Positions 18,319 to 63,539 of a stretch of DNA of 64,000 nt are shown here, in pieces. Position numbers and translations under genes: made by a program. Below the pieces are notes generated by a model. It was not told where the DNA came from, ran no database searches, and was given only the letters and a program-made list of their open reading frames with translations. The DNA lies in assembly GCA_012976225.1 (NCBI GenBank), contig JAAVVG010000008.1:124001-188000 (forward strand), in the 5' to 3' direction. Source of the stretch: Golubevia sp. BC0850 (taxonomy: Eukaryota; Basidiomycota; Exobasidiomycetes; Golubeviales; Golubeviaceae). Numbering within the stretch: position 1 is the first letter of the stretch; each line of letters begins with the position of its first letter.

Positions 18319-18321
<3 letters not shown>

Positions 18322-18376
<55 letters not shown>
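18322..18376 (+). repeat. (CT)n microsatellite in the 5' leader
   Basis: About 27 uninterrupted CT dinucleotides, followed by further CT-rich sequence, between the TATA box and the start codon at 18438. CT-rich tracts just upstream of the transcription start or in the leader are common in highly expressed fungal genes. The length is likely to vary between strains. Confidence 0.9.
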
Positions 18377-18379
<3 letters not shown>

Positions 18380-18437
18380 CTCTCAATCTCTACTCTCTCT
18401 TCCAATCTTTCTCGTCCACGCACTCTCTATTCTCAAC

Positions 18438-19830: not shown

Positions 19831-20338
19831 GCTTTGTTTGGCTCCCCACACTCTTTTAACCTTCTCGTTCTCTAGATTTGTAGATCTCTGTTCCATATTC
19901 TCTCTCGATTTCTCTGGTCACCGATTTGCCACTTGCTTTGTACTCTCATTACTGATTTGTTTATCGTCTCCTTCCCGTAATTCTACAAAGTTGCTTTCCA
20001 TCTCTGGTTCCGAATGACTTTTGTGAGATTCTCTTCCTGTTTGAGCCTTCGTGGTCTGAGGTCTCTGATAAACCACAGAGGGTGAAGCGGTGGATCTACG
20101 AAACGATCTTTCTTTCTGTACTATACAAGACAGATTCAATCGTAATCTTAGAAGCGGTAGTCCAAGGGGCACAGTCGAATCGTGCAACGAAACGAGAGGG
20201 ATAGAGTTGCTTCGAAAGCTTCAAGACAAATATTGGTGGACTCTTACTCGTTCTCTCAAATAACCTCCTCACTTCTACTCTCACATTCAAAGACATATCA
20301 AAGAACGTCAGCAACAAGGTATCAAAGATCTGTCATCG
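19831..20338. other. Intergenic region
   Basis: About 510 bp holding the 3' end of the secreted-protein gene and the upstream region of the DPW-motif gene. No gene or RNA seen. Confidence 0.4.
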
Positions 20339-26176: not shown

Positions 26177-27165
26177 CTCGATCTAAGGAGGATGAATGAT
26201 TGAATGTGATTCAAACGATGAAAGAGGAAGAGAAGAAGAGAAGATGAAAAAAGTGAGACGTTATGCGTTGGAGTCAGAAAACGCGAAAGTGTTGCTTGGA
26301 ATCGATTTTGGGTTTCCTCTTTGAGAGAGAGAGAGCATTCATTCAATCCACTCATTCCCATTCAAGACCTCAACAATCAACAAGAAGAAAAGGAAATAGA
26401 ACCAGTACACATCAAATTGAAGAATACACGGATGTTCTAAGTACAACGTCTTCTCGATTCAGTGAGTCCCTTACATACCTCATTGCCTTCAGTTTCAGTT
26501 TCTAGACAAGCCTTTTGGTTTCAGGCCCCCTTCAACCTCCTCTTCCATTCCTCCCCTTTTTTTTGAATTGACTGATCCTTTTCTCACGCCCTTTCTTTAT
26601 CAATCCTCCGATCTCTGTTCCTCTTTCTTTTGAATCTCTTCTTCTTTCACCACTGCCCTCGCCAATCCAAATCCCTTTCCTTCAGACTGTTCCTTCCTCT
26701 TCCTTTTCTCTCTTCTTCTTGAACCTCCTCCAACTCATAAAATCAATCTTTGAACTTCAATCATTTCACTTATATCGTCAGAAGAGCGCGCCCTCAATCT
26801 CAAAGAGCTCTTCAATCCTCCCTTCTCTGCTCCGAGTCGCGTATCCATCCTTCCTACTTTCTTTCTCTTTCCATCAGGGTGAGTATCACTTCTTTTACTA
26901 CAGGAATGAGAATCGGATCAACAGGATTCAGGGGAAATGATTCAATAGGGGATTGGAAATGCAGGAGAGCCTCAGTCCACGCGACCTTGAAGAGACAAGG
27001 GTGGGGAGCAAGGGAGGGTGGAGAGCAGGATCAGTCTGCAGCATTGGGTAGTGGCTTCTGGATGTGGTCGAAAGTGATCTCTTCGAGTAGAGTCTGATCA
27101 ACCAACAAATCTCAATCTCTAATCCCTCACCCTCCGACAGACTTGGTTCCGCAACAGGATAGTAG
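26177..27165. other. Divergent region with 5' leader of the forkhead gene
   Basis: About 990 bp between the start of F-box copy 2 (-) and the forkhead start codon at 27166. CT-rich stretches lie at 26520-26700. A GTGAGT at 26879 and a CCGACAG acceptor ending at 27140 would remove a 262-bp intron just upstream of the ATG. I regard this as a probable 5'-leader intron. Short open frames here are not supported. Confidence 0.4.
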
Positions 27166-30100
27166 ATGGGACAGGACAGCCACGACCAGATTGGGAATCT
27201 ACCCACCACCACTCCAACCTCTCGAACAGCAACAACTCCTTTGACCCCAAACCTCAATAGCAGTCAGCTAAGCTCTCCAAGCTCTTCTCCATCTTCACCG
27301 CCCATTCCAAGGAAGAAGGTCAAGGACGATGACGCGCCTTACATTCCACCCAAGCAAGTCTCAAGAGCAACCACTTCCTCTCGCGTCACTCAATCTATTG
27401 GAGATGGTCAGACTGGAATTGAAGGATTGATGGAAATTGCTCATGTGGATGAGAACCAGAATGGAAAGGGTAGAGTCTCATCAGCTGTAAGAGGTGGGAA
27501 AGCTGGAGGTGGTTCAAAGGGTCGCGCTCCAAGTAGCAATGCTGGTGGAAAGAAGAACAGCAATCAACGGACTAGTTCTTTCTCTTCATCAATTGGGGAA
27601 GGTTCTCCTCAACCTCTTTCAGTCTCTGGAACTCCTGTCCTCTCTTCCTCTCCATCTTTCGCATCTAATTCAACTTCAACTTCAATCCCTTCCAGATCAG
27701 CAGCCAATGAAGAAGATTGGTTCGCCAAAGCTCAAGCTATGGGTCTCAAACTAACTAGAGAAGAATTCGAGAGAAGCAAAGCCGGTCTCAGTGCTTTCTT
27801 GAAAGCGGAGAGAGCACCAAGTTCTTTGGCTCTAGGGAAGAGACCTTCTCCTTCAAGCGCTTCATCTACTTCTGCTGTCACCAATGGTGGAGCTATCGCC
27901 GGAACTGGCCAACCTCAGAAAAAGGATCTCGATTTTAATCCTCAACCAGACAGAGCGGCGGGTAAGACCGAGAAGATGGGTAGAAGCTCTCAAGCGATGG
28001 ACAGCGCTGAAGCCTCTCAAAGCAAGAACGGAACTGTCAGAAATTCGACATCTTCTACTTCCATCCAGGATCTCTCGGTCGCTAGTTCAGCTTCTGTGTC
28101 TACTCCGTCCTCAACACCAATTGTGCCATCCAATGGATTCGTCTCCTTCGCTTCAAGCTCTACCACACCTTCAAGCTCCTCTCAAGAGCCTGTGGGACCG
28201 GTCTTATCCTTCTTCACAGCCACGGTTTCCAAATATGGAACAGGACCAGAAGCTAAGGAGGAGAACGAAGTCGAGGTAGACATTGGAGCTGAGAAAGGGA
28301 AAGTGGGGGAAGAGATTGAGAAGAGCAACGGCATCTCCAAGCTGGATGAAGCTGGTGTAGCAGAAGAGAAAAGGAGAGCCCAGGAAAAGTTGAGGAGGAA
28401 GAAGGTAAAGGAAGAAGCTGCTACCTCTACTTCTGCCGATGCTTCTGGAATGTCTCCTTCCAACAGAGATCCTAATGGAAACCATAGCACCTCAAGCATC
28501 ACTTTCACTCCTTCAAATAGCTTCAACAGACACGGCTCTTCAAGTGGAAGTGGATTCAGATTCAGCTCTGGTTCTGGTTCTGGATCAGGAATGGAATGGA
28601 GCGCAAGTGGAAGTTCTGGATTTACAAGTGGAAGTAGAGGTCGAATCGAATTCGGACCAATCTTGGATGCAAATGAAATTGGACAAGAAGATTTGGCAGA
28701 TTTACCTTCTAATCTCTTCTCTCAGATCGCAAATCGATATCTCAATAGAGCTTTAAGATCAAGAAATGAATCTGCACAATCTTCAGAGAATGGAGAATCT
28801 CCAAATCCGAATTTAACAACTCAATCTAGAATTCTGACTTCCTTCAAGATCCACGGAGATGAATCTGAGGAAATGGATGAACTTAGTCTTAGAGCTAATG
28901 TCTCAGAGAACGGAGTCCTAACTCTTTCAGATCCTTCTACCGTTCCGGAAAGAGCGGCTCTTGCCAAAGCGTTGGCGCTGGAATCCCAAGAAAGTCATCT
29001 CAACGACGCAGTGGAAAGTCTGTCTCTATTGGATAGAGTCATGGAGACTTTGACAAGTCCTTTGAGGAAAAAGAAGGAATCTAAAGTGAAGGAGTTGGTG
29101 GATTTGGACGGTGATGAGGATCATCAAGAGCAGAATTCAGAGGGAGAGATCGAAGCAGATTTGGGTCCATCTCAAATGGAGGTTTCAAAGAATGAGACTG
29201 GAACCAATCCGAAGAGCGTCAGATGGGCGGCTGAAGTTCCAGAAGAAGAAGGACCAACCTCAAAAGACGAGTCTTCTCAACCTCCTTCCGACAAAGCAGC
29301 TTCTTCTAGTCTGGTCGCTTCTTCCAGACCATCTTCAACTTCCTCAACTTCAACTTCAGCCTCAACCTCAGTTTCAACTTCCGCAAGACGTCATCTCACT
29401 CACGCCCGAATGTCAACCAGAGATCACTACGATTTAGTTCTTCACGATATCTCACCTTCTCGTGGCCTCTTGGATCAAGACCCAGCCTCTCAGTCTTCAC
29501 TCTCACATCTAAGTAGACCTTCTGCTTCTCCGATCTGGGCAACCTCTGCCAACGTATCTGGATTCAGACATCGTCTAGGACGCGGTCTCGTGGAGGCAGG
29601 GATGGTCGACGAGTCTGCCTCCCACCATCTATCTCCCCTATCGGCTAGAGCTCGCAGATCTTCACCATCTGCAGACCAGCTTTCTATGGAAGGAGTGGAA
29701 AGAGCTGGAGCTGCTCTTCGTCAAATCTCTGGAGCAGGAGAGATGGATCAGCCGAGCAGTAGAACTACTTTCTCCCCTGCCCGTGGACTTCTGTTCTCTG
29801 GTGCAAGTCCATCTAGATCCAACGGAGAGGCAGACGATGAAGCTGAAGAGGAAACTGACGCCCAGAAAGAAGGTTTGACGAGAAATGGACCAGGACCTTC
29901 TCTGACTCGTTCACCTGCCAGAAGAGGATTCGGACCTTTCGATCCATCTCCTATCAAGCTGGGAAGACCTCTCTCGTTTAACTCTTCTCCTAGAAGCGGT
30001 CTTTTGAACAGAATGAACTCAACTGGATCTCTGGGAATTGGACTTGGACTCGGACGTCTACGACAGGATTCAAGAGACTCGACCATGAGTGACGTCAACG

Positions 30101-32649
30101 AGAGTCCTTCTCAGCCACTTGGTCATCACGGCAGGATGAGATCGACTTCCAACGATGGTCGTCCTTTGGGCAACACTCAAAGCAAGTTCCCAGCTCCAGG
30201 TTGGGGGAAAGCTGCCTCTTCCGAACTCACAGCGGACACCATCAGTCCAGCAGAGCTCTTTGGCTATCGAAATGCAGTGGCTGAGGGCTCTAATCCTACT
30301 TCTTCAGGATCAGACAAGCAGGATGGAGACGGAGCAGCAGCTGCTGAGTCAAGGTCTGGATGTCGAAGCAGACTCAAGAGCAAAGATTCTACTTCTGAGC
30401 AAGACGCAGAAGGAGAGTCTGATGAAGAGGAATCTCAGCCTCCAGCTAATTCTCGAAGTGTCAAGGGCAGGAGATCTGGAGCCAGAGGACAAGAAGCTTC
30501 TACCTCAACAGCAGTCGAGAAGAGAGGAACGATACCCGAAGTGTCAGAGACCAGAGGTTCCAAATCCAAGTCCAAGGAGAGGAAGAATCCGCCTGGCATT
30601 TCTCACGTCACGGCTGAAGAAACGGTTCTTCCAGACGGTAGCCGCAGGGTTCAGCTCGTCTCTGAAGAGCTCAAGACTGCCATTCGAAACGGCAAGCTCG
30701 ACCCGCCCCCACCTCGTTACTACACTCTCCCTCCTCACGCAGGTGTCTCAGACTCGAAGCCTGTCGATGCTTCTTACGCTGCTATCATCGGAGCTGCGAT
30801 TATGAGCGCAACCGATCGTGTCCTCTCTCTGGCAGAGATCTACTCTTGGATCACTGCTACCTATCCTTTCTACAAACCTGGAGATACGGTTTGGATGAAC
30901 GGAGTGAGGTACAATCTAAGTTCCCACAACTGCTTTGCCAAGAAGAACAGAGATCGCTTCAATCCTGGAAAGGGGGGTTTGTGGACCATTCCAGCTGAGC
31001 ATCTTCAAAAGTTCATCACAGGTCCTTACAGTGGAAGAGGTGGGAACGTCGCTTCCAAGTCTGAAGCTGCTGAAGGTGCAGGTGAATCAAGAAGGAAAAG
31101 AGGCAAACAATCTCAGGCTCAAGAGAAAGTTCAAGCGGAAGCGGAGGCTGCTCAAACTTTGGCTCAGAAGAGTTCTGTCTTCAATTCTGGAACTTTCTCT
31201 CGTCCAAGATATCAATCTCCTTCCACTTCCACAGCCCCAACTCCTACTTCTCAACGTTCAGTCGATGAGGGCGCTTTAGCTGATATCTCTTCAACTTCAA
31301 TGCTTCCTCCAAACTCTCAAAACTCTTCAGCTTCGAGCTCTAATCGTAGAAGAGCTCATTCAACCGAAGTCGAAGAGAGTATCTCTCAAAACAACTCTCC
31401 AACCAACTCTCGCAGAAAAGTTGCCAAGAGAATCAAGCTGGTCTCTAGAAACAACACTGCTGAGCCAGAAGAAGTTCAAGGAAGTGGAGGAGAAGAAGCA
31501 AAGGAAGGCAAAAGTCTTCGTAGACCGCCTTTGAGGAGCATCTCCAAGAATAGAGCAGCAGCTATGTCTGGATCTGATGAGGAGGTGGAGTTGGATGATG
31601 ATGCCATCACCCCCAGTAGACCAGGTTTGAAGGGGTACGCAAGTAGTGGTCATGGAAGTAGAGGTAGTAGAAGAGTTCCGATGTTGACAACCGCTGGAAG
31701 CAGCCCTCCAAGTTCCCCTCCAGATTCAATGATGCCCCCACCTTCTGGAAGTCTCTATTCGAACAGTAAGGGAGCTAGGAACTTGACTAGCGGAAGTAGT
31801 GGTGGAAACGCAAGTCGAAAGAGACAACACGGAATGGACGAGGATTCGAACTACACCAAGCAATTCAACAATCCAAGAAATGCAAGTTCCGGTTGGGCTG
31901 CTAGCCCTTATGGATCCCCTCTAGTCAATCGTCGTGGGGCTAGCGTCAAACAAAATTGTCTTCCTGCTGCTGTCAGAAGCTCGAGCGTCAGTGCTTCTCC
32001 TCAACGTCTAGGAGCTGGAGCTGGTCAAATCTCGCCATTCCGTATTCCGAATCGCTCTCCAATTTCATCCGTTCGTGGGTCTACAAGCACTGCCATGGAA
32101 AGAGGAGGTAGTAATGGGTCGAAAGACAGTCTCAGCAAATTCCAACCTGCACGTTTGGCCAACGCCATGGGATTGAACGTCTCTCCTCTTCCAGCTTCTC
32201 CTGGTTTGAGAGGTTCTACTCTGACTAGTTCTATTATGAGCCCAGTTGGATCTAGTGGATCTAGACTTCAATCAGCCATGTCCGGTCATCCTCCACCCCA
32301 AGATACAACTCCTGGAAGATTGGCAGGTAGCTGGAGTCAACATCAGATCTCTTTGGGAATGGGATTGGATTCCACGCCAGGTAGAATTCATTGGGGAATG
32401 GGAATTGGAGCAGGTGGTACTCCTTCTCCAATGAGAAGATTTGCTAGAAGTCCAATGGGTGGAATTGGAATGGGAATGGGAATCAGCGGCTCTCTTGGAG
32501 GTCAATTCTTTGAAGAATATGATACTCAAGGCAATCTGGATTACGAGATGAATTTTGCTGATATGGCTGGTTTCAATTCTATCGATGCAAGTCCTTCAAG
32601 AGCGATTTATGGTAATTGGAATAACGGGAATGGAAATGGTGCGAGTTAG
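27166..32649 (+). CDS. Very large forkhead-domain transcription factor
   Basis: A single uninterrupted frame of 1827 codons. The forkhead winged-helix domain lies at about residues 1203-1285: SYAAIIGAAIMSATDRVLSL, LAEIYSWITATYPFYK, the recognition helix WMNGVRYNLSSHNCF and the wing KGGLWTIPAEHLQKF. The helix departs from the family pattern WQNSIRHNLS, with Gly for Ser, Val for Ile and, notably, Tyr for the DNA-contacting His. The rest is Ser-rich and disordered with acidic patches. Many SP/TP sites (for example LFSGASPSRS, GPFDPSPIK, DTTPGR) suggest cyclin-dependent kinase control, as in fungal Fkh and Hcm1 factors. I see no FHA domain, so it is not a plain Fkh1/2 or Fhl1 orthologue. It probably acts as a nuclear DNA-binding regulator; its targets are unknown. 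Confidence 0.88.
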   Translation: MGQDSHDQIGNLPTTTPTSRTATTPLTPNLNSSQLSSPSSSPSSPPIPRKKVKDDDAPYIPPKQVSRATTSSRVTQSIGDGQTGIEGLMEIAHVDENQNGKGRVSSAVRGGKAGGGSKGRAPSSNAGGKKNSNQRTSSFSSSIGEGSPQPLSVSGTPVLSSSPSFASNSTSTSIPSRSAANEEDWFAKAQAMGLKLTREEFERSKAGLSAFLKAERAPSSLALGKRPSPSSASSTSAVTNGGAIAGTGQPQKKDLDFNPQPDRAAGKTEKMGRSSQAMDSAEASQSKNGTVRNSTSSTSIQDLSVASSASVSTPSSTPIVPSNGFVSFASSSTTPSSSSQEPVGPVLSFFTATVSKYGTGPEAKEENEVEVDIGAEKGKVGEEIEKSNGISKLDEAGVAEEKRRAQEKLRRKKVKEEAATSTSADASGMSPSNRDPNGNHSTSSITFTPSNSFNRHGSSSGSGFRFSSGSGSGSGMEWSASGSSGFTSGSRGRIEFGPILDANEIGQEDLADLPSNLFSQIANRYLNRALRSRNESAQSSENGESPNPNLTTQSRILTSFKIHGDESEEMDELSLRANVSENGVLTLSDPSTVPERAALAKALALESQESHLNDAVESLSLLDRVMETLTSPLRKKKESKVKELVDLDGDEDHQEQNSEGEIEADLGPSQMEVSKNETGTNPKSVRWAAEVPEEEGPTSKDESSQPPSDKAASSSLVASSRPSSTSSTSTSASTSVSTSARRHLTHARMSTRDHYDLVLHDISPSRGLLDQDPASQSSLSHLSRPSASPIWATSANVSGFRHRLGRGLVEAGMVDESASHHLSPLSARARRSSPSADQLSMEGVERAGAALRQISGAGEMDQPSSRTTFSPARGLLFSGASPSRSNGEADDEAEEETDAQKEGLTRNGPGPSLTRSPARRGFGPFDPSPIKLGRPLSFNSSPRSGLLNRMNSTGSLGIGLGLGRLRQDSRDSTMSDVNESPSQPLGHHGRMRSTSNDGRPLGNTQSKFPAPGWGKAASSELTADTISPAELFGYRNAVAEGSNPTSSGSDKQDGDGAAAAESRSGCRSRLKSKDSTSEQDAEGESDEEESQPPANSRSVKGRRSGARGQEASTSTAVEKRGTIPEVSETRGSKSKSKERKNPPGISHVTAEETVLPDGSRRVQLVSEELKTAIRNGKLDPPPPRYYTLPPHAGVSDSKPVDASYAAIIGAAIMSATDRVLSLAEIYSWITATYPFYKPGDTVWMNGVRYNLSSHNCFAKKNRDRFNPGKGGLWTIPAEHLQKFITGPYSGRGGNVASKSEAAEGAGESRRKRGKQSQAQEKVQAEAEAAQTLAQKSSVFNSGTFSRPRYQSPSTSTAPTPTSQRSVDEGALADISSTSMLPPNSQNSSASSSNRRRAHSTEVEESISQNNSPTNSRRKVAKRIKLVSRNNTAEPEEVQGSGGEEAKEGKSLRRPPLRSISKNRAAAMSGSDEEVELDDDAITPSRPGLKGYASSGHGSRGSRRVPMLTTAGSSPPSSPPDSMMPPPSGSLYSNSKGARNLTSGSSGGNASRKRQHGMDEDSNYTKQFNNPRNASSGWAASPYGSPLVNRRGASVKQNCLPAAVRSSSVSASPQRLGAGAGQISPFRIPNRSPISSVRGSTSTAMERGGSNGSKDSLSKFQPARLANAMGLNVSPLPASPGLRGSTLTSSIMSPVGSSGSRLQSAMSGHPPPQDTTPGRLAGSWSQHQISLGMGLDSTPGRIHWGMGIGAGGTPSPMRRFARSPMGGIGMGMGISGSLGGQFFEEYDTQGNLDYEMNFADMAGFNSIDASPSRAIYGNWNNGNGNGAS

Positions 32650-35087: not shown

Positions 35088-36600
35088 TCAAAGTTTTGCC
35101 TTCTCCCCACTTTCTTTCCTCTGATTCTGTCCCTGATTAACAGAGAGATCCAAAGTCAAAGCACATTGTCTAGCAACGGCAAGGATCTGAGGTCCATCTT
35201 TATTCGAAAGACCAAAGAGATGATTGTCTTGTGGATGAGTCCAAACTTCAGCATTCAAATCTTGTTGACCTTGCATGATGAATCTTCCATGCATATAAAT
35301 TCCTGTTCGATGGATAGCGACGTTGTATGGGATCTTTCGCTTGAATTCGACGGTTCTGGAAGGGCAGAACGTGGGAAGGTCAGCAAGGTTGTCTAATGGC
35401 TGGAGTGTCTGGAGTTGGGAATTACTGACAGATGCATGGTTGGATACCAGCTGAGGTTTGGGAAACGGAGAAAGTATAGGTATGAGAGGTTTCGGAAGGC
35501 AAGGATCTGAGTACTCTCTCTTGAAGACTGCTTACCTTGGAACTTTTTGATGAACATCTCTTGGAAGAATATCCACTGGATTTAAGATCATATCCGCGAA
35601 GAACCTACCTCGGCAGAAGATTTCCAAATTCAAGTAAAGGGGGGTCAGCCAATAGCGATCGAAGTGAGAAACCGGTTGAACGAAGGTCACAACCCTTCCC
35701 CTCCTCTTTCTCTCTTTCTTCTGTGTTTCAAACCAACTACTCACGGAATGTTATTGTTCCCCATTCCAGGTTCACTAACTTCAGCTGGGACTTCAGCCAA
35801 TTGTAACCAAGCTCCCCATTTCAATTCACCTTCTTCTCTAGCTTTCAAAAGCAATTTCCTATCCTCATGCAACGTCAATCTATCTCTCATGTTCAATTTC
35901 TCCGACTTCATCTTTTGACTAAATTCGCATTCTTCCATCAAATGGATTGGACATTTAGGGAAGAATTTGGAATCTTGTGAAATCGTAGGTTTGTTCGTTG
36001 GATCGGAAATTCGAGTTGAAAAGGAAGTCATTAAGATATGAGCTGAAATTCGAGTTTGAGGAGCGTTGGTTTTTGAAGACTGTGAAAAAAGAAAGAAAGG
36101 GGGGTTTGAGAAAGCAAGCAGAGAATCAGGACAGGGAAAAGTGAGTCTTTTGAACTTCCGGGACATGAAGGATTCAGAGGGCAACTCACCTTCTGTACGA
36201 TGCTAGCTTCTAAGTTTGTGAAACCTCTACCTCTTTTAACTACCACTATCTCCACCGAATATGGAACAGTGGCGGTTGTAGCTGCTAGATAAGAGGCTGC
36301 AATGTTCATTGGATCGTAGTGACCTTTCGGCTGAGATGGACCACCTTGAGAATCATGTCTCATGAAAGCTTGAATCGCGTTTAACATTACGGAAAGTGAA
36401 TATCCACCTTGCGGCACTGAACCGATGCACCACTGAGAACGCAAAGAGAAGGGAAAGGGTGAATGGTAAAGAACAGACGAGTCTGGAGATTGTTGTGGGA
36501 GTCACTCACTTACCTCATTATCGAACCAACCAATATAAGTTGCCGAATCTTTGTCGAATTTATCGAGAGTGCTAAGAATCGCACCGGCTAAAGGTGCCAT
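35088..36600 (-). CDS. Acyl-CoA thioesterase-like protein, double hotdog fold
   Basis: Five exons (36600-36514, 36432-36190, 36079-35745, 35694-35536, 35355-35088) join in frame to 363 residues. The N-terminal half has the pattern of TesB-like/4HBT_3 thioesterases: WCIGSVPQGGYSLSVMLNAI, then HYDPMNIAASYLAATT and SVEIVVVKRGRGFTNLEASI. The C-terminal half holds a second hotdog (LYLNLEIFCRGRFF, RTGIYMHGRFIMQGQQDLNA, HLFGLSNKDGPQILAVARQC). Such proteins hydrolyse acyl-CoA thioesters or are catalytically silent relatives. The Asp/Gln/Thr catalytic set cannot be assigned with confidence by eye. There is no C-terminal SKL peroxisomal signal; the end is GEKAKL. The acceptor of exon 4 is AAG rather than CAG and is the least certain join. 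Its neighbour on the other side is the microprotein gene, also on the minus strand. Confidence 0.8.
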
Positions 36601-37485: not shown

Positions 37486-38648
37486 ATGTCTTCCAAAATC
37501 CAAGTGTCAAGCGTGCGATCCTCGATTCAAGGTCTAATCAAGGCCTCTGAAGACAAGCGTAGAAACTTCAACGAGACCGTTGAACTTCAAAGTGAGTACT
37601 AACAATTGGTTCGTCAAACATCTTTTCAGCTGGGATAATTCAAATGAATCAACCATCAGGGATGGACAGTAGGAAAGTTCGATGAGGATGGAAGGATCAA
37701 GCAGGAGCAAGAAGAAATTTGCACTTCTACCTGAACATGACTTTTGAGACTCTCCAAGACTCTCTAGTCAAGTGCGCAACTTCCAAAAGCGCTCAAAAGT
37801 GTATCAAACGATTGAACATGAGGGCTTCACTCGATTTCCAGAAGGAACCATTGAGCGTTACATGGTCCTGACCACCTCTTCCCACCCTTGCCCTCTCCCA
37901 GTCGGTCTCAAGAACTACGATCCTCAACGTGACAAGCGTTTCTCTGGTACCGTCAAATTACCTCATGTCCCTCGTCCACGTATGGCTATGTGCATCTTGG
38001 CCGATGCAGCCGACGTTGATCGTGCTAAGCTCATCGAGCTCGACTTCATGACCGTCGAGGATTTGAAGAAGCTCAACAAGAACAAGAAGTTGGTTAAGAA
38101 GGTTAGTAGCTTTAGTAAACGGGGAGTGGGATGGATTGGGGACACGGTAGACGAGAAGAGGGGCTCTCAGGGGAGATGAGTTCAGAGGAGAAGAAGGAGG
38201 AAGGCCTACTACTAAAGGCTTTTCTGCCAACCCAATCCTTCTCTCACTAACCATCGCCCGCGCCCCCTTTTCTTCTTACCTTCTCCTTTCTCAATCACAG
38301 CTCGCCAAGAAGTACGATGCTTTCTTAGCTTCCGATGCTCTCATCAAGCAAATCCCACGTCTATTAGGACCCGGTCTATCCAAGGCTGGAAAGTTCCCAA
38401 CTCCAATCTCTCACGCCGAAGATTTGGAAAAGAAGGTTACTGAAGTCAAGTCCACCATCAAATTCCAATTGAAGAAGGTTCTATGTTTAGGAGTCGCCGT
38501 TGGTCACGTTCAAATGACTGACGATCAACTTTTGGCCAACATCATGTTGTCCATCAACTTCTTGATCTCTCTATTGAAGAAGAATTGGCAAAACGTTAAA
38601 TCTTTGACTATTAAGAGCACCATGGGAAAACCTATCCGTTTGTATTAA
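37486..38648 (+). CDS. RPL10A: 60S ribosomal protein uL1 (L10a)
   Basis: uL1 forms the mobile L1 stalk of the large ribosomal subunit, which guides deacylated tRNA out of the E site. Three exons, 37486-37591, 37902-38101 and 38301-38648, give 217 residues, the family's usual length. Typical blocks are [51 protein letters not shown] and [15 protein letters not shown], and the end is [11 protein letters not shown] probable leader intron (37407-37485) has its acceptor directly before the ATG. The first coding intron is long (310 bp) for this window; the second uses GTTAGT. Codon use is strongly biased, as expected for a highly expressed gene. A telo-box-like pair lies upstream. Confidence 0.96.
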
Positions 38649-39619: not shown

Positions 39620-41670
39620 TTAGATCCAATTGTTGATTTCAAGCCACTTCACATTTTCCTGCAGCCAAGAGGAGACGGAACCATTCGCTCTTACTGGGAT
39701 GTCTGACTCTAAGAGTGCGATATGCGAGCATTTTTCGAAAGGCTCGAAGGCTGGCTTTTCATCCGACATAGTTGCATCTGAGGAGTCGAGAAGACCTGAC
39801 GCAGCGGAGGCTACCTCTCTGAACGAGAGTCCCTTGGAGCACGCCTTTCTGGAAGCGACCATGGAAGCAACGACTAACCCATCAACTGAGAGAGACGGCT
39901 CCTCTTCAGATCCAGTAGCCGACAGATAAAGAGATCGCAGGTTCGGAAGAAGCATCTTATCTCTCCACCCTGCTTGAATGTTGGGACCCGAGAGTGGAGA
40001 TAGAAGCTGGAAGAGGTGTTCGTAAAAGGTCGATGGAGTCGTCTTTGGAAGTATAAGACTGATGTGCCAGAGTTCCTCCCAGTCCTGGATTGAGTGGATG
40101 AGAGTAGAAGCCGCTGATTTCGCACTGGCTGGGTCTGTGATCTGGAGATTGAGGAGTCCCAGCTGCTTGGGAGCGGAATCGACTTTCATCGAGGAGAGGT
40201 CCTTAGGATTGAGAGAAAGGAACTGAAGCAGATTTAGGCTTGGCGTCATCAGTTGCTTGCAGAAGATGCTTGAATTCCCAGATGTCGATTTTGGAGGGGA
40301 TATGAGGTTGAGTTTGACCAGGTTTGGAAGGTTCATCTTCGGGATGTCGTCCACTATCTCGTCATTCGTCTCTTGTGTCCAGCCAAATTCTACTTCCACA
40401 AGACTTGGATTCAAAGAAAAAAGCTTGACCACCCAACTAGGACTCAACTTCTTGCTGATGATGATGACGTTTTTGGCATCCCGAAGGCGTTCCAGTAGGG
40501 CCTCGTTGCAGACGAGGTTCGTCTCTCCTGATCCCCATTCCAGTGTCATGAGAGAGGCCCCCCAGGAAGAGGAGAATTCAATAGTTTCTCCAAGAGGCTC
40601 GAGTAGTATACCTTCGAGACCCCATTTGAAAGATCTAAGGACAGATAACGAGTGACATTGACCTGCTACCTTTGCCAGAGATTTGTCTAGATCGCCTTGA
40701 TGAACCACTGAGATCGTCTTGAGACTCTTCGAAGATCGTTTGATTGCGTTTCCGAGCCTCTCTTGAAGAGCTGGATCCAGCTCATCTTCGACTTTGAGAA
40801 TGACATGCTTCGTCGAGTCTTGATTTCTACGATTGAAGAGCTCTAGTCCCTGACAGACCTGTTCTCCGGTCCCTTCCATTTCGAAGCTTCGAAAGAGTTC
40901 CGATGATCCTAGAATAGAGTCCTTCCAGGCCTTAGAGACTCCAATCGATCTGACTAGCGAAGGAGCGTCGCATAGAGAGAAGAGCTTGAGGAAGAGGTCT
41001 GGAGACACTCTTCTGAACCGGCTTCCGAGCTCTTTTGAGCTTTGATATTTGAGGCCATTGGCGATTCCTTCGTAATCGATGGGTTTAGGGGAGGTCGAGG
41101 CTGCGATCTGATCCTCCTGCTTCTCCTTGGCTTGCTTAAAGTGGTGCATGGCCATCCTCAGATGGGCGAATCCGGCTCTTGAGTGGGTCTGATGATAGAA
41201 GATCTAGACTACGTCAGTATCAGCGGCATTAAAGTTTCCCTGGCTATAGCAAGATGAATGCTTGACTCACCTGAAGACTCTCCTCCTTTTCCAAAGCTCT
41301 CTCCACGTCTTGCACAGCCTTGTCAGTCTGGCCTGTTCTCTCCCAAGTGAGACTCCTCAGCAGCAGAAATGACACGGTATCAGACGATCCTGAATGGATC
41401 ATCTAGATTCGGGGGAAGCAGAGAAGATACTAGATAAAACTCGACTTTGGAGGAACGAAGAGACTGAAAGAACGGCAATAATGAGAGACTCAATCCTCAA
41501 ATCCTTATACTGACCTCTGTGCATATCTCATTGGCAGTCTTGTAATCTAATCTATCCAAAGCATCTTGAGCAGCTTGAAGTTTGAGGGCGTGAAGCTGTG
41601 CGGATGTGGTGCTGCGTTTGGCAGCTGGTTCTTGTTCTGCTTGAGAATCTTGGTTGGCTCTCTTGTTCAT
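39620..41670 (-). CDS. F-box/TPR/LRR-like protein, copy 3, intact
   Basis: F-box proteins are substrate receptors of SCF ubiquitin ligases, binding Skp1 through the F-box. Three exons (41670-41515, 41402-41271, 41203-39620) give 623 residues without interruption. The N-terminus has TPR-like helices (AQLHALKLQAAQDALDRLDY; LTWERTGQTDKAVQDVERAL; SRAGFAHLRMAMHHFKQAKE). The F-box follows at about residues 145-185 (RVSPDLFLKLFSLCDAPSLV, then WKDSILGSSELFRSF). The C-terminal 400 residues hold irregular leucine-rich segments (LPNLVKLNLISPP, LLQFLSLNPKDLSS, LPNLRSLYLSA). TPR, F-box and LRR in that order is the layout of yeast Dia2. It is the only live member among three copies here. Its first 532 bp are almost identical to copy 1, introns included. 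Its target is unknown. Confidence 0.85.
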
Positions 41671-41673
41671 CTT
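41142..41673 (-). repeat. Near-identical block shared with 11056-11587 (inverted)
   Basis: The partner of the block at 11056-11587, in opposite orientation and about 29.5 kb away. It spans exon 1, both introns, exon 2 and the start of exon 3 of the intact F-box gene. Confidence 0.85.
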
Positions 41674-42748
41674 TATGGATCGATCGATAGATACTTATGG
41701 AAGCTAGTCTGATCCTCTCTTGACGGAAGAGAAGGAGTGAACGAATGGAAGGTGACAGAAGATGGTGTGGTTCGGGAGAGAACAAGTGTTTCTGCTTGCT
41801 TTTTCACTTGTTGCACTACTTGTGTCAGCGTGTCAGTAGTTCGTGTCAGTAGTTCTTAGTACCTATAGACACTCTAGTTCTTTCGTTCGACTTTCGGCCA
41901 ACAGAATTGTAGAGGGATGGCGGGGAAAGGCGATCTGTAGATTTTTCGACTCAAGTTGAGGCTATCACTCCCCAAAGTATTTTCATAGGAACTCAAGCAG
42001 AAGATTGAAATAAACGTTTTCAGAGCTCTAGACAGATTGGAGGAGAGATGAGAGGGTGCGAGCGTACAGAACGAGGGATCGAGGATCGACGTGAGAGTAA
42101 GGAGCAACGACGCAAGCGCAGAATCGACCATCTCTCCTTTTCACCGAAAAATGAAGCCAGTTCGATGCTCGTATGGGAAGGAGAATCATGAACAACATGA
42201 GGAGATTCTAGAGAGAGGAAGCAGTAGAGTATTGAAGGAGGACTTTATGGGTGGCCCGTGCGTTGAGCCCACTACAATTTTTGTGGGCTGCTGTGAAATG
42301 AACTTCCTCTCCCATTCCTACACCTCATCCTATCGAAATTCCCCTTTCCTTTGTCTGATCCTTGGCGATAACAATCTTCAACGCTTCAATAACCTAAGAT
42401 TAGAACAAAGCAAATTCAACTCAGTGAGTTCAGAAGCGAAGCATCAATAGTCGAACTTCCTTCCTGCTGTACATAGCTCAATCCCCTTCCCTCCCCTCCT
42501 CTCTCCTTCTTCCGTTCAGCTCTTTTGTTCTCTTCAATCGAGGAATTCAAAAGACTCCTCCATATCCTCTCAATCCAAGCAAACGATGCAGCAATCCCTT
42601 CTGAACTTTAAGACTATCAATAATTTAAACCCAATATCCAATAACTGCAACAACTCTATTCTAAATCAATCTTCAACTCAATCCTCATCTCAAGTCTCTT
42701 TGAGATCTTTGTAATCTCACCTTTACATAATCGTTCTACCCACTTTTT
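41674..42748. other. Intergenic region
   Basis: About 1.07 kb between the divergently transcribed F-box copy 3 and the acidic protein gene. Short open frames on both strands (near 41874-42131 and 42091-42450) lack any recognisable feature. A small tandem pattern (cagtagttcgtgtcagtagttc) lies near 41840. No supported gene. Confidence 0.4.
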
Positions 42749-54483: not shown

Positions 54484-55679
54484 ATGACTCTTACTCAAAC
54501 TCAACAAGATATCTCATCTCCAATCAAAAATGTAGCAGAAGTTGCTGAGAGGAATGAAAGTAAATTGACCTCAGACGATCAACTTAATGGTATCTTCTCT
54601 GGAATGGGTCTAAATGGCGGGAATCCAACAGAAGGAGACAAGGTGAGTCTTGGGTTGCTTTGGATGGAAAGAAGTAGTGATTGGGAAATGAGGGGTTCAA
54701 GTTCAGAAGGAATATAGAATAAGAGACACAGAGAGATTAAATGGTCTGCATGAAGATTGAACACCTTTCCTTCCTGGACAGCTTCAATTCTTTCATGTCT
54801 AGTCAGAATAGATCTCCTGAAAAGTAGTCATAGAGTTCAAGTCTTTCTGTAGGTAAACTTGCATAGCTCAACCTCCTTAATTCTCTCAACTTCTTCCACT
54901 CAGTCCTTATCTTCAACCGTCCAATCCACAGCTTCTTCAGCTTATCAAAGTCTACCAAACTCCAATCAAATCCAAGAACCACTTTCTAACGCAGCTGGAA
55001 AACTAGGTTTAGGAGCTGTTGCTGGAAGCGGTGCAACTTCGACTCAAGAGACTAGGAGTCGAGAAGATTCGTTGAGCTCTTCAAAGGTATCTACCGAAGG
55101 TTCTGGCGATGAAAAAAGTTTGAAAGAAAGAGCTAGAGCTCAGTCTTTAGCTGCTGGTCGTGAGTATACATAACTTTAGAATGTTCGAATTGATCAAGCT
55201 TCTGTGGCAAGTTTCTGATTTGGTTTGCCTTTTTCTCCTACCATTCTTTTACCACAGCTTCCGATCCCTCTAGAGTTGGAAAGTCTCAACAAGAAATAGG
55301 AACCGAAACTGACATTCCAACCAATGCTGGTTTGGGAACTACTTTATCTCCAGATTCTTGTTCTCAAACTGCCTCGAAAGGTTCTCAAACTCATAAAGCA
55401 AAAATTCCAAATGATTATTATGACGAATCTCATGTGACTGAAGATTTATCTCCTCCAGAAATTGATCATCAAAAAGGACAGCAAGCAAATGTTAAGGGAA
55501 ATGAAGACGCTCATGGAAATGGAAACCTCGATGAAGAAGAGGGAGCTGAAAGCGGAAAGAAAGGTTTAGGAGAGAAATTGAAAATCAAAATCAAAGGTCA
55601 AAGTAAAGTCATTAAGGGGAGTTTAACTCATAATCAAGAAGAAAAAGAAATCGGGAAAGCTATTAAGAGAGGTGAATAG
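54484..55679 (+). CDS. Disordered LEA-like hydrophilic protein
   Basis: Three exons (54484-54642, 54853-55159, 55258-55679) give 295 residues. The product is not recognised. It is rich in Ser, Thr, Gln, Gly, Lys and Glu, with no predicted fold. Exon 2 holds amphipathic stretches such as STVQSTASSAYQSLP and LSNAAGKLGLGAVAGSG. The C-terminus, GEKLKIKIKGQSKVIKGSLT followed by HNQEEKEIGKAIKRGE, resembles a short conserved ending seen in many small fungal proteins of unknown function. The layout suggests a stress-protective or membrane-binding protein. This is inference from composition. Confidence 0.7.
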
Positions 55680-56074
55680 AAATTGTTTGGGTGATGTAAA
55701 TATCTTTTTTTTCCGTGCCTTATCGAGTTTAAGACCACCTGTAGATTTGTTCACTTTTTGTTCGTGTTTTTGGCTCTCTCTCATCTGTATCAATCGATAG
55801 ATTTTCACTCAGAATCAGGTTCAGTTCTGTTTCTTGGTTCTTTTGAAGAGGGGAGAGATCGCAGAACATGCGCTTCAACTTTAGGAATCTCCGTCTCCCT
55901 CTTGATCCTCACCTCTGTCTAGTGAAAGTTTGGTGGGATGAGAGGATACATTGCGGGAAAACGTAAGACGCAAAGTGAAGAAAGTGGAGTCGAGTTTTCT
56001 TTTCTTCTCTCTCAAGTCACACTCACATCGTCTACATCTCCAACCTCAAGGAAATCTTCTTCCATATTCTTTGA
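55680..56074. other. Intergenic region
   Basis: About 395 bp between two plus-strand genes, T-rich at the start (probable 3' end) and with no supported feature. Confidence 0.35.
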
Positions 56075-57568
56075 ATGAGTTCTGATTCTGATGGTTCGGT
56101 AGCTATCAATGTTTTGGGAATCCTCGGAGCTGTGAGTAAGCAATTTGATTGCAAGAGCTTGACGTAGAAAAGCGAGAGTTGGAGAGATTAGAGAATCGCA
56201 ATTTCCGACTTTGACTCTCTCTTCTCTCTGACGAACCTCCTTTTGGACCTGTCAAACAACCTAAAAGGTGTTTTGGAGTAGTGAGTAAAGGCGTCATACT
56301 CAAAATATAGGGTCCCACAAGCGTTTTCTTTCTTTCGGTTTTCTATCCTCGAGACCTCGAGCTCAACGCTGACTCAACACACTAATACTTCCCTTCATCT
56401 CATTTTTGTTATCTTTTCAGTACAGCTCATTCCACAAATCTACATCAACTATAAACGAAAGTCAACTCAGGGTGAGCAAAGTAGGAGCGCTCGACTTGTG
56501 AAGCATGTTCTCCCAAGACTTCTCTCACCTCCTTCAATCTCCTAAATCTTTCTCCTCCTCATCTCTAAACAGGACTTCAACCTTCGATGATGCTACTGTG
56601 GGCCACAGCGGGACTTCCTTTGGGCATTCACAACATTCTTGCAAATCTGAATGTTGCACTTCAAGTCCAGCCACAAATCCTGACCTCTCTGAGCTTGATT
56701 ACTTGGAGTCAAGTCATGTTCTACGGTCATGTAGGTTCTCATAACCTGATAGGAGAGGAGCTCTTGTCAGAAAAATGGAGACCTGTTTGAGCCACTGAAA
56801 AGGAAGCTCTTCTTCGCTGACTCTTCCCTCTCACTCCTACGATTCAGAATTGGAAGGCAGTCAAATGTGCCCTAGTCCTTGCTGCTCTCTTTGTCGTTTT
56901 TGCAGGAATTGAGATCGCGGTTATCTTCGGATTCAAGGTGAGGTTCCAAAGCTCTTCTCGGATTTGTCGACTCGATTCTTCCGCTGATCCAGCTTGTCCC
57001 AATCTTCCGATGCTAACCAACACTCATCTTGTCTCTCCATCTTCAGCATGGTTCCTCTGAAGCAGTCCCGGAAGACTTTTTGACATCCATGGCTGTTCTC
57101 GCCGCCCTTGGATTGGCTCTCGGAGTACTTCGACATTACTATGATATCTACACTCATCGATCTGTCAGGGGAATAAGTTGGGCCTTCGTTTTCTTAGATG
57201 CAGCTGGAGATTTGACGAGTCTGTTGAGTGTCGGTGAGTAACCCAATCTCTTCATCTCTCCATTCCTTCGAGGTTTTTACTGACCAATTCTTTTCTTCTA
57301 TATAGTGATTCAACAACCACCAGACTTCAAGAGCGCTGCGATCTATGGGACCGAATTAGTCTTGTGGATAGGCATCATGATAGCAGGAGGATTGGGTTTT
57401 AATTTCAGGCAATATCTTGGGAGAAAAAGAAATCCAGAAGGGATTGGCGACGGATTGTCACAGCCCTCGGTCTTTAGGACCTCTGCAACCTCGTTGGTCA
57501 ATGAGTATGAAAGTCAAGGGAATGCTGAAGGTCAATCAGAAAGTAGTTTGAGGCTTAGAAGGATTTAG
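56075..57568 (+). CDS. PQ-loop repeat membrane protein with a 13-nt microexon
   Basis: Seven exons (56075-56131, 56268-56280, 56421-56471, 56573-56730, 56848-56937, 57047-57233, 57306-57568) give 272 residues. Two PQ-loop motifs mark the family: QLIPQIYINYKRKSTQGLQP near residue 25 and LRHYYDIYTHRSVRGISWAF in the second half. In the second, the PQ itself is replaced by RH. Hydrophobic segments between them (MMLLWATAGLPLG, CALVLAALFVVFAGIEIAVI, LVLWIGIMIAGGLGF) fit a seven-helix protein of the SWEET/cystinosin-like class. Exon 2 is only 13 nt (codes VFWS plus one base). It is needed to give the usual start of the first loop, and it is flanked by good AG and GTGAGT sites. PQ-loop proteins are often vacuolar amino-acid exporters; the substrate here is unknown. 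The exon 4 donor is GTAGGT. Confidence 0.85.
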
Positions 57569-58518: not shown

Positions 58519-58625
58519 GTCGGTGTAGTATAGAGGCAACACGTATCGTTGTGGAATATCGTCAGGTTTCCAAACGACTGAAAGTCATATCCGATGAGTC
58601 GTCGGTTCGATTCCGGCCACCGACA
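58519..58625 (+). tRNA. tRNA-His (GTG) with a 36-nt intron
   Basis: The acceptor stem pairs GTCGGTG (58519-58525) with CACCGAC (58618-58624), followed by discriminator A. The T arm is GTCGG-TTCGATT-CCGGC, with a good B box. The anticodon stem pairs TATCG with CGATG (58592-58596). The loop reads TT-GTG-G, giving anticodon GTG at 58551-58553, then an intron of about 36 nt (58555-58590) at the canonical position after base 37. The D stem GTAT/ACAC has one mismatch. A T5 run directly downstream is a pol III terminator. The mature length of about 71 nt is normal. The opposite-strand open frame at 58042-58500 begins just upstream. Confidence 0.88.
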
Positions 58626-58956: not shown

Positions 58957-61900
58957 ATGAACTCTATCAATGCGGAAACGCCTTCAATCTCAAGTTCCTT
59001 GAATCCAAATCTTATCTCACAACAATTCATTTCTCTATCTCAAGTCGAATCAACTTCGCCTACTTCATCTACTCAATCTACTTCTTCTGTGCCATCCGAC
59101 GTCTCTCTTCCATCTTCATCAATCCTCTCTCCATCCTCAGAAGATACCAGACTTCCGGTCGGTTTGGGAAGAGGCGGCTCGAACAACAGTGCCCTCCAGA
59201 CTGGTATTCCAAGCATCAATTCGGACTACAACGCAGACGGGAGTGGTTCTAGAGCTACAGGCGCTGAAGAGCGAATGGAAGAAGTTCACAATCTCAACCA
59301 CCACCTCAACTCTTCCGACCCTTCTCGGTGCCTCAATTCATCCATTAACTCCTCCCAATCCTCTGAATCTGAATCTGGGACTTGTTCTGAACAACCCGGA
59401 TGCCGCTCGAGTGGGACAACAAGACGAACGGGATCAAGTTCTACACCTTCTCCATCCAAGCTAATAGCTACATCAGACCATCCTGAGGTCAGTCCAGTCA
59501 GCGAGGAGGATTGGGTGAAGTGGATTAGGGGAGAGCCTTTGGGAAATAGCTCGGAAGGAATCGAATCGATTGAAGGAGTTGAGTCAAGCGCTGCTGGTGA
59601 GTTTTCTCGAGAGGTCCAGAAGATTGGCATCTCTTCGGTGGTGGAGAAAGGAAGTTGACGTTGCAGCGAGTAGTCTATGCAGCGAGACTTCGCCTGTAGA
59701 ATTCCAGTAAATCTATTTCTTGGACTTGGAAAATGTAGAAAGAGGTTTCTGCCCACACCTATCTGCGTACCAACTCTTGACGTTTCTTTCCTTTCACCGA
59801 ATCCAGACTTCTGGAAGATCCATGGCTACTTGCCTCCCCCTACCACTTCCAGCGACCTCAAATACAAACACAGAGAAGTCCTACTCAGGCATGGATTCGA
59901 AACGCCATCCAATCTCATCGACATCATGGCAAGGTCCACAAGGCTAGCTCGGATTCAATTCAGTATTGACTTCGCAGCGTTCAGCATCGTCGACTGTGAA
60001 GACCCGAATCGAATTTTGGTATTTGGAGGTTTCAAAGATGGCACCTTAGAGCGTCTGGAACGATCAGGAAGTGTCTGCAGCCACGCTCTCGTGGCTACGG
60101 ACGTACCTCAACTATTCCATCTTGATCTGGACTCGGACTATCGATTTGCTAAGAACCCAAATCTTTGCACTCTGGATGGAACAGGTAGGATGAAGTTCTA
60201 CGTTTCCGTACCCATTTCTCTTCCTAGCGGGAATGGAGATGAGACTATCCCGATCGGAAGGATGTGTCTGATCTCTGAGACTCCTAGAAGTTGGAGCGAC
60301 GCAGAAAGTGAACTACTCAAGGACCTCTCAACTTTGACTTCTGACTCCTTGGAGAAACTTCAACAGAAAGAAAGAGCAAGGAGGATGGGAGTCATTCAAA
60401 GAAGTCTTACGTTCTTGACAAGATCAATCGACGAGGAAACACTTCTAGATCACTCTAGATGTGACGCTATCTGCAGAGGAGGAATAATCTCGGACACGAC
60501 TAGCATTAATGACAGCTCAGCTACAACTCTATCGGGCTCTCATTGTTCGAAGCGAGTTGAACTAGCGTGCTCGTCTATTCAAGAAGTACTCAAGGCTCAG
60601 TCAGTCCTCGCCATCGATACCTCCGACTTCAAAATCAAGTCTTCTGATCCCAGTCAAAGCCTCTCTCCTGGTATCTCGACCTCCGCCTCTATTACATGGA
60701 ACACATCAACATCTTCAAACTCCTCGACATCCCAAATCTCAGAATCCAGTTCTCACAGTCGGCTGGTCTCCTCTTCATCTATCCCTGGCGAAGATGTCGA
60801 AATCTGCCCAGTGCCCTGTCAGGGCCTCGGTCTCATCTCTGGGAGCAAAGGGGTCCAGATTGCAACTTTGGAAAAGGACTTTGGGACGGGCGTACAAAGA
60901 GCTGAGGTCGCGAAATGGCTGGAAACATGGAAGGTGGAAAAGAGAAAGTCGTATCCAATCGTCTACGACAGATGCAAGAAGGCCTTACGACAGGACCAGG
61001 ACTCTGAGCTTTCGGATGACGTTCAAACCTGCCATCCTCTCAACCCTCTAGCTTCTCTTCTACCCAATAGTGATTCTACGGAGATGTATATCGCTATCCC
61101 AGTCTTCAACCTCGATGGGCAGCCCATGTTCCTTTGCCTCGCTTCGTTCGAGAAGAAGCAAACAGTCGATTCTGAACTGCTTCTTTTCGTGGAGAACGTT
61201 TCGATGACAATCAGATCTTCGATTTTGAAACAGCGGATCAGAGCGGCAGAGCTGCTTGCTCAGCACTTCGTTCAGCAGGTCCAGGTAAGTCTTCTTAGTC
61301 TGTGCTCCCAGTCGAGCACCATCCTGACTGACTTTCCTTGCTCTCACTTTTTTCCCTCTCTTACAACAGCATGAGTTGAGGGTGAGTTACATCGTTTCAT
61401 CTTCTTGTCTTTGAGTCGATCAAAAGATTGTTCACTCTTCACGTCCAAAAGCTTGTCTCCAGATTCTCTTTCTGACTTTCGTGCCCTCTTCTTTCGCCTT
61501 TCCCATTCAACTTCTTCCTCCATACCTTCCTCACGCCATCTCCACAGACGCCACTTCACGCAATGCTTGGAATAGCGGATCTGCTTCAACAATCAGCTTT
61601 GGTTGCAGAAGACGCAGAACCTGCTTTGGACCTCTCTGATTCTCATGTTTTCACGTCTCTTCTATCTGGAATCCAGTTGGCGGGCTCGAATCTATCCACT
61701 ATATTGGAGGGTGTTCTGGACTTCTCTCGCGCCAACGCCCGGAGAGGATCTCAAGTGCCTTTGGAAGAAAGATTGGAGCCATTGGACCTAACCAGAACGC
61801 TCGAGATTCTCTCAGCCTCAGCACTCGAGCACCTTCACCTCACCTCAAGCGTTGGAGAAGGGAACAGTGCCCAGGAGATCAAGGATAGTCTATTAGAAGC

Positions 61901-63539
61901 GAAGAACATCAAACTACCGGATCTCATTATCTCAATTGAGCCTGCTTTGGAGAGATACCGCTGCTCAGTGAAAGGATTAGCAATGGTTGAAAAAGTTCTT
62001 GCTCAGATCATTTCGAACGCTACTCGATTCGCTTCAGGAGGGGCTGTCAGAATCTCGGTCAGGTTACTTCAAAGCGAAGACAAGTCATCCAAGTTTCTGG
62101 AGTTCGCAATTATTGATGAGGGTCCAGGAATGACTCGATCCTTTATCGAGTCTGAACTTCTACAGCCATTCAAGAAAGGCAGCTTCTATGTTCAAGGGGT
62201 TGGAATTGGGATGGCTTTAGCTGCGAATCTCTGCAAACTTCTATCAGCAGAGCTGAAGGTCGAATCTCACGTAGGAGTTGGAACTAAAGTTTTGTTCACC
62301 GTTGCTACCGAGGTTTCAGAACAAGATTTTGAAGTTATCAGTGAATTCGCTGTCAAAGCAGCAGCTTTTCTTGGCTTTGATTCCACCAGCTCCAACTCGA
62401 AAAAGATGGTCCAAGACTTCATATCTAAGGATCTTTTGGAGAACGGCGTCAAATCTTGTAAACCTGAAATGGCTGAGGGTGAGTGAATGAGCCCTTTTTT
62501 GGGGCTCTAACTATCTAATGCCGTTCCCTCTGGACTTTCTTTGACCCTCGATATCCCTTTCTCATCGACTTCCACAGTTCTGATCTGCACGGAAGATCTG
62601 GTCACTTCAGAAGGACTTGCTTCTGTCACCAAGAAAAGCTCCAACTGCCCTCGAATCATCATTCTCTCTTCTTCTTTGGCACCCGTCAACTCAAACCTAG
62701 ACGGAGTAGAGATTCTCACCCTTCGACTACCCTACGGCCCTTCTATGCTCAAGGAGATGAGAAATTTCCTATGCCTAGAACTTCCACCAATCTCAACATT
62801 ACGAGAATGCTGCAAGGGTAGCTCACCCAACCACATTCATGAGCCAGCTGATCTTTTGATCAGTGAGAATGCTTCGACGGAAACGGACTTGAGTTCGGTA
62901 GCTTCTGCACTTGATTCCCAAGTGGAAGAAAGTCAGGAGTTCAGAGTACTTATCGTAGAGGACAACCCCCTTAATTTGAGGTCAGTAAGAACGGTGCTTT
63001 TTCAAGAATTCTTGAAACCATGAAACAAATGAACTCCATCTTCCCTTTCTGCTCCTCAGGCTACTCGCAACCGTCTGTTCTCGCATGAACATCAACACTG
63101 AGACTGCCGTTGACGGAGCTGAAGCTGTGACCAAATTCCGCTCTTTCAGTCCCTCACTTGTATTGCTGGACATCAATTTGCCGATCCAGGTAAGTACGAG
63201 CTGAGATAAATCACACTCATCGAAGAGATGTCGGTTCAAGCTCTCACACTTCTCGTCATACTCTCTGTTCTCTCCCCTCCCCCCTTCCTTTCACTCGTTT
63301 ATCTTTTCCAGGACGGGTTCGCAGCTTGTCGTCAAATGAGAAGCCATGAGCTCAAACACGACCCCAAGATCATTGCTGTCACTGCTCTATCTTCAGCTGC
63401 TGACAAGTTCAAAGGACAGCAAGCCGGCGTGGACGATTGGCGAGTCAAACCAGTCTCTATGAGAGAACTTAGACGAGATCTGTCAATTTGGAGGAAAGCT
63501 TGGGAGGAGAGAAAGGTGGGAGAAGGGGAAGGATGGTGA
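58957..63539 (+). CDS. GAF-containing hybrid histidine kinase
   Basis: A two-component phosphorelay sensor that autophosphorylates on His and passes phosphate to its own receiver. Seven exons (58957-59596, 59708-61284, 61370-61381, 61548-62478, 62578-62980, 63060-63189, 63312-63539) give 1306 residues. The order is a Ser-rich N-terminus (1-220); a GAF-like domain at about 290-460 (MARSTRLARIQFSIDFAAFS, FYVSVPISLPSG, GRMCLISETPRSWSDAESEL); the H-box HELRTPLHAMLG with His 740; an ATPase with N box ISNATRF, G1 IDEGPGM and G2 GVGIGMALAANLCKLL; and a receiver with VEDNPLNLR, phosphoacceptor Asp in LLDINLPIQ and Lys in WRVKPVS. There are no membrane segments, so it is cytosolic. The HELR residues are carried by a separate 12-nt microexon. 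It would feed a Ypd1-Ssk1/Skn7-type pathway. The ligand is unknown. Confidence 0.93.
61370..61381 (+). other. 12-nt microexon encoding HELR of the H-box
   Basis: CATGAGTTGAGG is preceded by TTACAACAG and followed by GTGAGT. Both flanking exons end and start in phase 0 (FVQQVQ before, TPLHAML after). Including it restores the universal HELRTPL motif. Without it the kinase keeps its frame but lacks the phosphorylated histidine. Confidence 0.9.

Follow-up and report, generated by a model that had tools for sequence, protein, structure and literature searches.

Part of the H-box of a predicted hybrid histidine kinase, HELR with its phosphoacceptor histidine, almost certainly lies on an exon of its own that is only 12 nt long. 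The gene is located in the 64,000-nt stretch of DNA analyzed here, which is referred to as the window and to which all positions refer. The microexon is very probably included constitutively, as the product of intron gain or retention by which two ordinary introns came to flank the HELR codons. Below, we describe the gene, the evidence that the exon is real, the other short exons of the window, and the extent to which skipping or retention of the neighboring introns may play a role.

Gene Structure and Domains of the Predicted Kinase

The kinase gene was placed at 58957-63539 on the plus strand. In a model built by hand, it consists of seven exons of 640, 1478, 12, 931, 403, 130, and 228 nt and encodes 1273 residues (Table 1). 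The identical seven exons were returned by an automatic gene finder, in a run whose seed sites included the kinase introns. Domain scans detected HisKA (PF00512; 34.1 bits in the whole protein and 42.0 bits in the segment, cut-off 26.9), HATPase_c (PF02518; 45.1 bits, cut-off 26.4), and a C-terminal receiver domain (PF00072; 75.4 bits, cut-off 30.2). A GAF domain (PF01590) scored 24.1 bits against a cut-off of 22.4 in an isolated segment scanned alone. It was absent from the whole-protein scan listing at E 0.01, and one further segment from the sensor region yielded no GAF match. The combination of GAF, ATPase, and receiver domains that the initial annotation had assigned to this protein was thereby recovered, with GAF coming from the isolated segment.

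The receiver motifs VEDN, LLDIN, and VKP were seen by eye. Inspection by eye also located the N and G boxes in the ATPase and, in the receiver, the acidic pair along with the phospho-Asp, Thr, and Lys. Because these receiver residues and both ATPase boxes are present, the enzyme looks intact, and it probably has kinase activity. Bacterial hybrid kinase equivalogs (TorS, LuxQ, and others; NCBIfam) did not describe the protein: the best 25 of the 52 families matched at E 0.01 all scored far below their cut-offs, and the highest among the matches listed was TorS with 73.3 of the 676.5 bits needed. Fungal hybrid histidine kinases are reported to fall into 16 published groups, which are defined by the H-box signature and the N-terminal domains (PMC4965123). 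The predicted structure of the exon 2 product alone was unusable, with a mean pLDDT of 32.6. Relatives were sought in contig collections; 52 pattern matches to the GAF-containing segment in a genome contig collection of prokaryotes and 9 to the HisKA-HATPase segment in a viral contig collection yielded no confirmed relative. The collections scanned hold prokaryotes and viruses, and the negative result for a fungal protein therefore weighs little.

Table 1. Exons of the kinase gene, the introns flanking its microexon, and other predicted short exons of the window.
Feature	Positions	Strand	Basis
Exon 1, low-complexity N-terminal region	58957-59596	+	Hand model; gene finder agrees
Exon 2, sensor region with GAF, last residues FVQQVQ	59807-61284	+	Hand model, gene finder; kinase-free run recovers part only
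Intron 2, 85 nt, CAG/GTAAGT ... TTACAACAG/C	61285-61369	+	Sequence reading, hand model, kinase-free finder
12-nt microexon, CATGAGTTGAGG, encoding HELR with the phosphoacceptor histidine	61370-61381	+	Sequence, HisKA scan, gene finder, join enumeration
Intron 3, 166 nt, AGG/GTGAGT ... TCTCCACAG/A	61382-61547	+	Sequence reading, hand model, kinase-free finder
Exon 4, TPLHAML..., remainder of HisKA and HATPase_c	61548-62478	+	Hand model, domain scan, gene finder
Exon 5, linker and start of receiver domain, VLIVEDNPLNLR	62578-62980	+	Hand model, domain scan, gene finder
Exon 6, receiver, phospho-Asp in LVLLDINLPIQ	63060-63189	+	Hand model, domain scan, gene finder
Exon 7, end of receiver domain and stop codon	63312-63539	+	Hand model, domain scan, gene finder
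13-nt microexon, GTGTTTTGGAGTA, PQ-loop repeat gene (56075 to ~57568)	56268-56280	+	Gene finder, domain scan, frame test
Predicted 21-nt exon, acyl-CoA thioesterase-like gene	35430-35450	-	Gene finder; weak domain support
Predicted 22-nt exon	15246-15267	+	Gene finder; without protein support

Evidence for the 12-nt Exon

The exon boundaries were read directly from the sequence. Exon 2 ends with FVQQVQ at CAG/GTAAGT (61284), the 12 nt stand in the context AACAG/CATGAGTTGAGG/GTGAGT, and exon 4 begins after CCACAG at ACG CCA CTT CAC (61548), which reads TPLH. The exon is internal, with GT-AG introns on both sides, and all of its joins are in phase 0; HELR falls between FVQQVQ and TPLHAML. The initial annotation had placed HELR on a separate 12-nt exon in phase 0, and this placement is confirmed at the level of splice sites and reading frame.

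We then enumerated the possible joins between exons 2 and 4, using GT or GC donors in 61230-61559 and AG acceptors in 61260-61639. Introns had to be at least 40 nt long, at most two introns were allowed, and the ends were fixed to the frames of exons 2 and 4. This gave 1917 open in-frame joins (28 with one intron, 1889 with two, and none without an intron). The H-box pattern H[ED]x[RKQ][TNS]P appeared in six of the 1917. All six run through exon 61370-61381 and intron 61382-61547 and vary solely in the upstream donor; one of them has the consensus CAG/GTAAGT. A join that encodes HELR without a separate exon, which the initial annotation had named as evidence against its reading, was found nowhere in the set. 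Its identification of HELRTPL as the H-box of a histidine kinase is likewise borne out.

If the exon were not real, HELR would be a chance string inside a single 263-nt intron, and the gene would encode a kinase without a phosphoacceptor. The direct join of 61284 to 61548 is open in frame, which is in favor of this explanation. However, a chance origin agrees poorly with a model in which AG, the word H[ED][LIMV][RK] in 12 nt, and GTRAGT follow one another and bases are independent with the composition of the 263-nt stretch: the stretch is expected to contain this arrangement 1.5e-8 times. Omission of the exon also cost the HisKA segment 15.8 of its 42.0 bits, and the remaining 26.2 bits fall below the cut-off of 26.9. 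In addition, HATPase_c and the receiver are far above their cut-offs, which gives no impression of a degenerate gene. We regard this explanation as having next to no chance of being correct. The related proposal that HELR arises by chance or through some other exon was rejected on the same chance count and on the finding that each of the six H-box joins needs 61370-61381.

A comparison with PDB gave a gap-free alignment through HELRTPL to the histidine kinase chain 4jas, which we take to be a bacterial histidine kinase. Gene finding was also carried out with a simple finder free of the kinase, the splice and coding tables of which were trained on 18 other predicted genes; these 18 models stem from the earlier run whose seed sites included the kinase introns. 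The 12-nt exon was kept at three of the four intron penalties (-8, -9.5, and -11) and lost at -13, where no upstream model above 8 remained. This run supports the exon, although the finder is crude: at every penalty, most of exon 2 and its junction with exon 1 went unrecovered. We take the exon as real because of the join enumeration, the expected chance count, the loss of HisKA score, and the alignment to 4jas. Protein homology also lends indirect support to its presence in mature mRNA.

Short Exons and Other Features of the Window

A small gene finder run over the window predicted 19 genes with 70 introns and 53 internal exons, in a set in which two genes at 54484-57568 were seen by eye to be fused. 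Internal exons of 30 nt or less numbered four among the 53 (12, 13, 21, and 22 nt) and were spread over four of the 19 genes; seven were of 51 nt or less. The length was a multiple of three in 19 of the 53, and 11 of those 19 were in phase 0-0. Since so many internal exons share these properties, the fact that the H-box exon could be skipped in frame is unremarkable.

The PQ-loop repeat gene, which is the next predicted gene upstream of the kinase, scored 97.9 bits with its 13-nt exon. When this exon was omitted, the frame shifted and then ran into a stop; the exon is therefore needed for a functional product and cannot be skipped in frame. With the 21-nt exon, a C-terminal thioesterase family appeared at 12.8 bits (cut-off 24.1), and it appeared solely when the exon was included, the version used for comparison being approximate. 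Solid protein support among the four short exons was found for the 12-nt and 13-nt exons only. At least one further microexon with protein support is thus predicted in the window. The recognition of an H-box microexon is partly a matter of ascertainment, because microexons that bear a motif are those that a reader recognizes.

Several other features were observed in the window. A tRNA gene (Rfam, 43.8 bits) lies at 58519-58625 on the plus strand; its anticodon region is interrupted by a long insertion that is probably an intron. The ARAGORN listing for the window contained no gene. Three diverged copies of one gene or element, pieces of which are 77-94% identical, were located at 10934-12780 (+), 24314-26178 (-), and 39788-41791 (-). 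The proteins predicted from the first and third of these start with MNKRANQDSQAEQEPAAKRS, and a 250-residue segment of the element had no Pfam match over the cut-off. A single-exon open frame of 1827 residues with a forkhead domain (80.7 bits) occupies 27166-32649 (+) in a neighborhood that is otherwise intron-rich. At 18438-19830 (+), a predicted protein carries PSGLPSG-type repeats and what looks by eye like a signal-type start; short local repeats were noted at 18779-18952, and the GC skew is locally strong in 16001-20000. Ribosomal protein uL1 is encoded at 37486-38648, and its best PDB matches are eukaryotic ribosomes. Judged tentatively from gene structure, the source may be basidiomycete-like.

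Splice Sites and Probable Constitutive Inclusion

Splice sites were scored with matrices derived from 64 predicted introns of other genes. Compared with these introns, the upstream intron had its donor (61285) at the 44th percentile and its acceptor (61370) at the 61st; for the downstream intron, the ranks were the 86th (donor, 61382) and the 48th (acceptor, 61548). Switch-like microexons commonly have weak flanking splice sites, a feature that is not obligatory. None of the four sites examined here was weak in this sense, all lying between the 44th and 86th percentiles. The best competing acceptor inside the stretch, at 61416, scored 5.9 compared with 7.9 at 61370, and the best competing donor, at 61298, scored 1.2. 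The lengths of the flanking introns, 85 and 166 nt, corresponded to the 27th and 83rd percentiles.

We propose that, in this intron-rich fungus, two ordinary spliceosomal introns flank 12 coding bases, which would leave the HELR of the H-box as an exon of its own. Both introns are short and are probably removed one after the other through intron definition, in which each intron is recognized as a unit. When an acceptor and a donor are 12 nt apart, their simultaneous binding by splicing factors is hindered. The same spacing separates acceptor 61370 from donor 61382, so the simplest route would be intron definition in which one of the introns leaves first; after that removal, the microexon would be part of a long exon. 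For plant microexons, the downstream intron is reported to show a tendency to leave first (PMC8831610). A survey of alternative splicing describes skipped exons in fungi as marginal and proposes that intron definition is prevalent (PMC3925392). Constitutive splicing of an even smaller exon, of 1 nt, is described for APC11 of Arabidopsis (PMC4674806).

Since a kinase made without the exon has no phosphoacceptor, the microexon would be expected in essentially all functional mRNA. It would then have arisen through the gain or retention of introns in a gene dense with them and would not in itself be a control element. Two observations stand against constitutive inclusion: the 12-nt exon is in frame, unlike the 13-nt exon, and intron 3 is longer than most.

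A different kind of regulation could act through the flanking introns, slow removal of either one giving early stops and a lower dose of the kinase. Retention of intron 61285-61369 leads to an early stop after Thr-Thr-Ala, within the microexon, and retention of intron 61382-61547 to one after SSSCL. Intron retention is reported to make up two-thirds of fungal alternative splicing (PMC3925392), and plant introns beside microexons are described as more often detained (PMC8831610). The ordinary strength of the splice sites speaks against such regulation, as does the finding that no measured feature separates the flanking introns from the other introns of the kinase. We therefore consider regulated retention rather unlikely. 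It is compatible with constitutive inclusion, since productive mRNA would still contain the exon, and the confidence placed in the two overlaps.

Predicted Effect of Skipping

The initial annotation had also held that skipping would give an in-frame protein without the phosphoacceptor and that splicing of the exon could serve as an on/off switch for a phosphorelay. The first claim stands: direct joining of 61284 to 61548 shortens the protein from 1273 to 1269 residues and gives FVQQVQTPL at the junction. The phosphoacceptor His and the following Glu would be lost, the Thr of HELRT would be kept, and the upstream helix would be displaced by four residues. Autophosphorylation would be lost as a consequence of such skipping, and a form biased toward phosphatase activity might conceivably result.

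If this joining took place under some condition, the exon would be a regulated cassette, and the skipped isoform could poison dimers in a dominant-negative manner or drain phosphate through its receiver domain. Without the exon, the HisKA segment still scores 26.2 bits, slightly below the cut-off, and with TPL held fixed, QQVQ takes the place of HELR, with a hydrophobic residue at the Leu position and the Thr kept. Precedents for regulation of this kind include the glucose-dependent 20-nt microexon of Trichoderma Xlr2 (PMC11121469), one potato invertase transcript for which a review describes cold-induced exon skipping (PMC8483784), and the phosphotransfer protein MoYpd1, for which signal-specific isoforms are reported in a fungal phosphorelay (PMC10912366). 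However, no weak site accompanies the exon, all four being at or above the 44th percentile, and the intron spliced out by skipping would span 263 nt, a length equalled or exceeded by only four of the 70 predicted introns. The 13-nt microexon of the same window cannot be skipped in frame, and skipped exons are the marginal class in the fungal survey (PMC3925392). A regulated cassette is accordingly improbable in our judgment.

The same low probability applies to the wider proposal that regulated skipping makes a natural phosphoacceptor-less kinase, a four-codon splicing choice deciding whether the phosphorelay is driven or is drained and dominantly inhibited. Nothing was found that supports the switch put forward in the initial annotation; the sites are ordinary, the skipping intron is long, other microexons are predicted nearby, and exon skipping is described as marginal in fungi (PMC3925392).

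Implications

The exon has consequences for annotation. An exon of 12 nt is easily overlooked. Were it missing from this gene model, the predicted kinase would lack the histidine and could be mistaken for a pseudokinase. Apparent absence of this residue in a fungal histidine kinase should prompt a check for a missed microexon. If skipping did prove true, the sensor of a phosphorelay would be under splicing control, and a clear-cut biochemical prediction would follow. More probably, the gene is a further example of an intron-dense fungus splicing microexons routinely.

Comparison with Known Systems

In a literature search judged mostly on titles and the starts of abstracts, we found no description of a microexon in a histidine kinase or of a skipped H-box. 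Judged by analogy, the DPN mini-exon of plant acid invertase is the closest in kind to the putative kinase microexon. The exon skipped in potato invertase is said to be this very mini-exon, a report attributed to Bournay in 1996. In the invertases, as in the kinase, a tiny exon with a length divisible by three encodes part of a conserved motif, namely the DPN of the beta-fructosidase motif on 9 nt (PMC8831610, PMC4579127). The two cases differ in that invertase is a glycoside hydrolase, its 9-nt exon is in phase 1 and is found in many plant genes, and skipping has been observed there.

Among fungi, Xlr2 of Trichoderma virens has a microexon that encodes two Cys of the Zn2Cys6 domain and with them part of a motif essential to this regulator; the authors term it the first switch-like microexon in fungi (PMC11121469). 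Unlike the kinase exon, it is 20 nt long and not a multiple of three, its omission gives two separate transcripts instead of skipping in frame, and it belongs to a transcription factor for which regulation by glucose is reported (PMC11121469). The Tco4 gene of Cryptococcus neoformans encodes a hybrid histidine kinase of a basidiomycete yeast and has 42 introns, the most in its genome, and exons as short as 1 bp are described in Cryptococcus (PMC3990503). The likeness drawn here is one of kinase type and intron richness, and the parts of that report consulted mention no H-box microexon (PMC3990503). In the P450 genes of Phanerochaete chrysosporium, exons encoding 2-10 residues occur across a basidiomycete gene family, nearly one third of the genes being reported to have microexons (PMC1184071). 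These are other proteins, and a role for their exons is merely suggested in that report (PMC1184071). To this known kind, in which microexons fall on conserved motifs, the present case adds the H-box of a histidine kinase.
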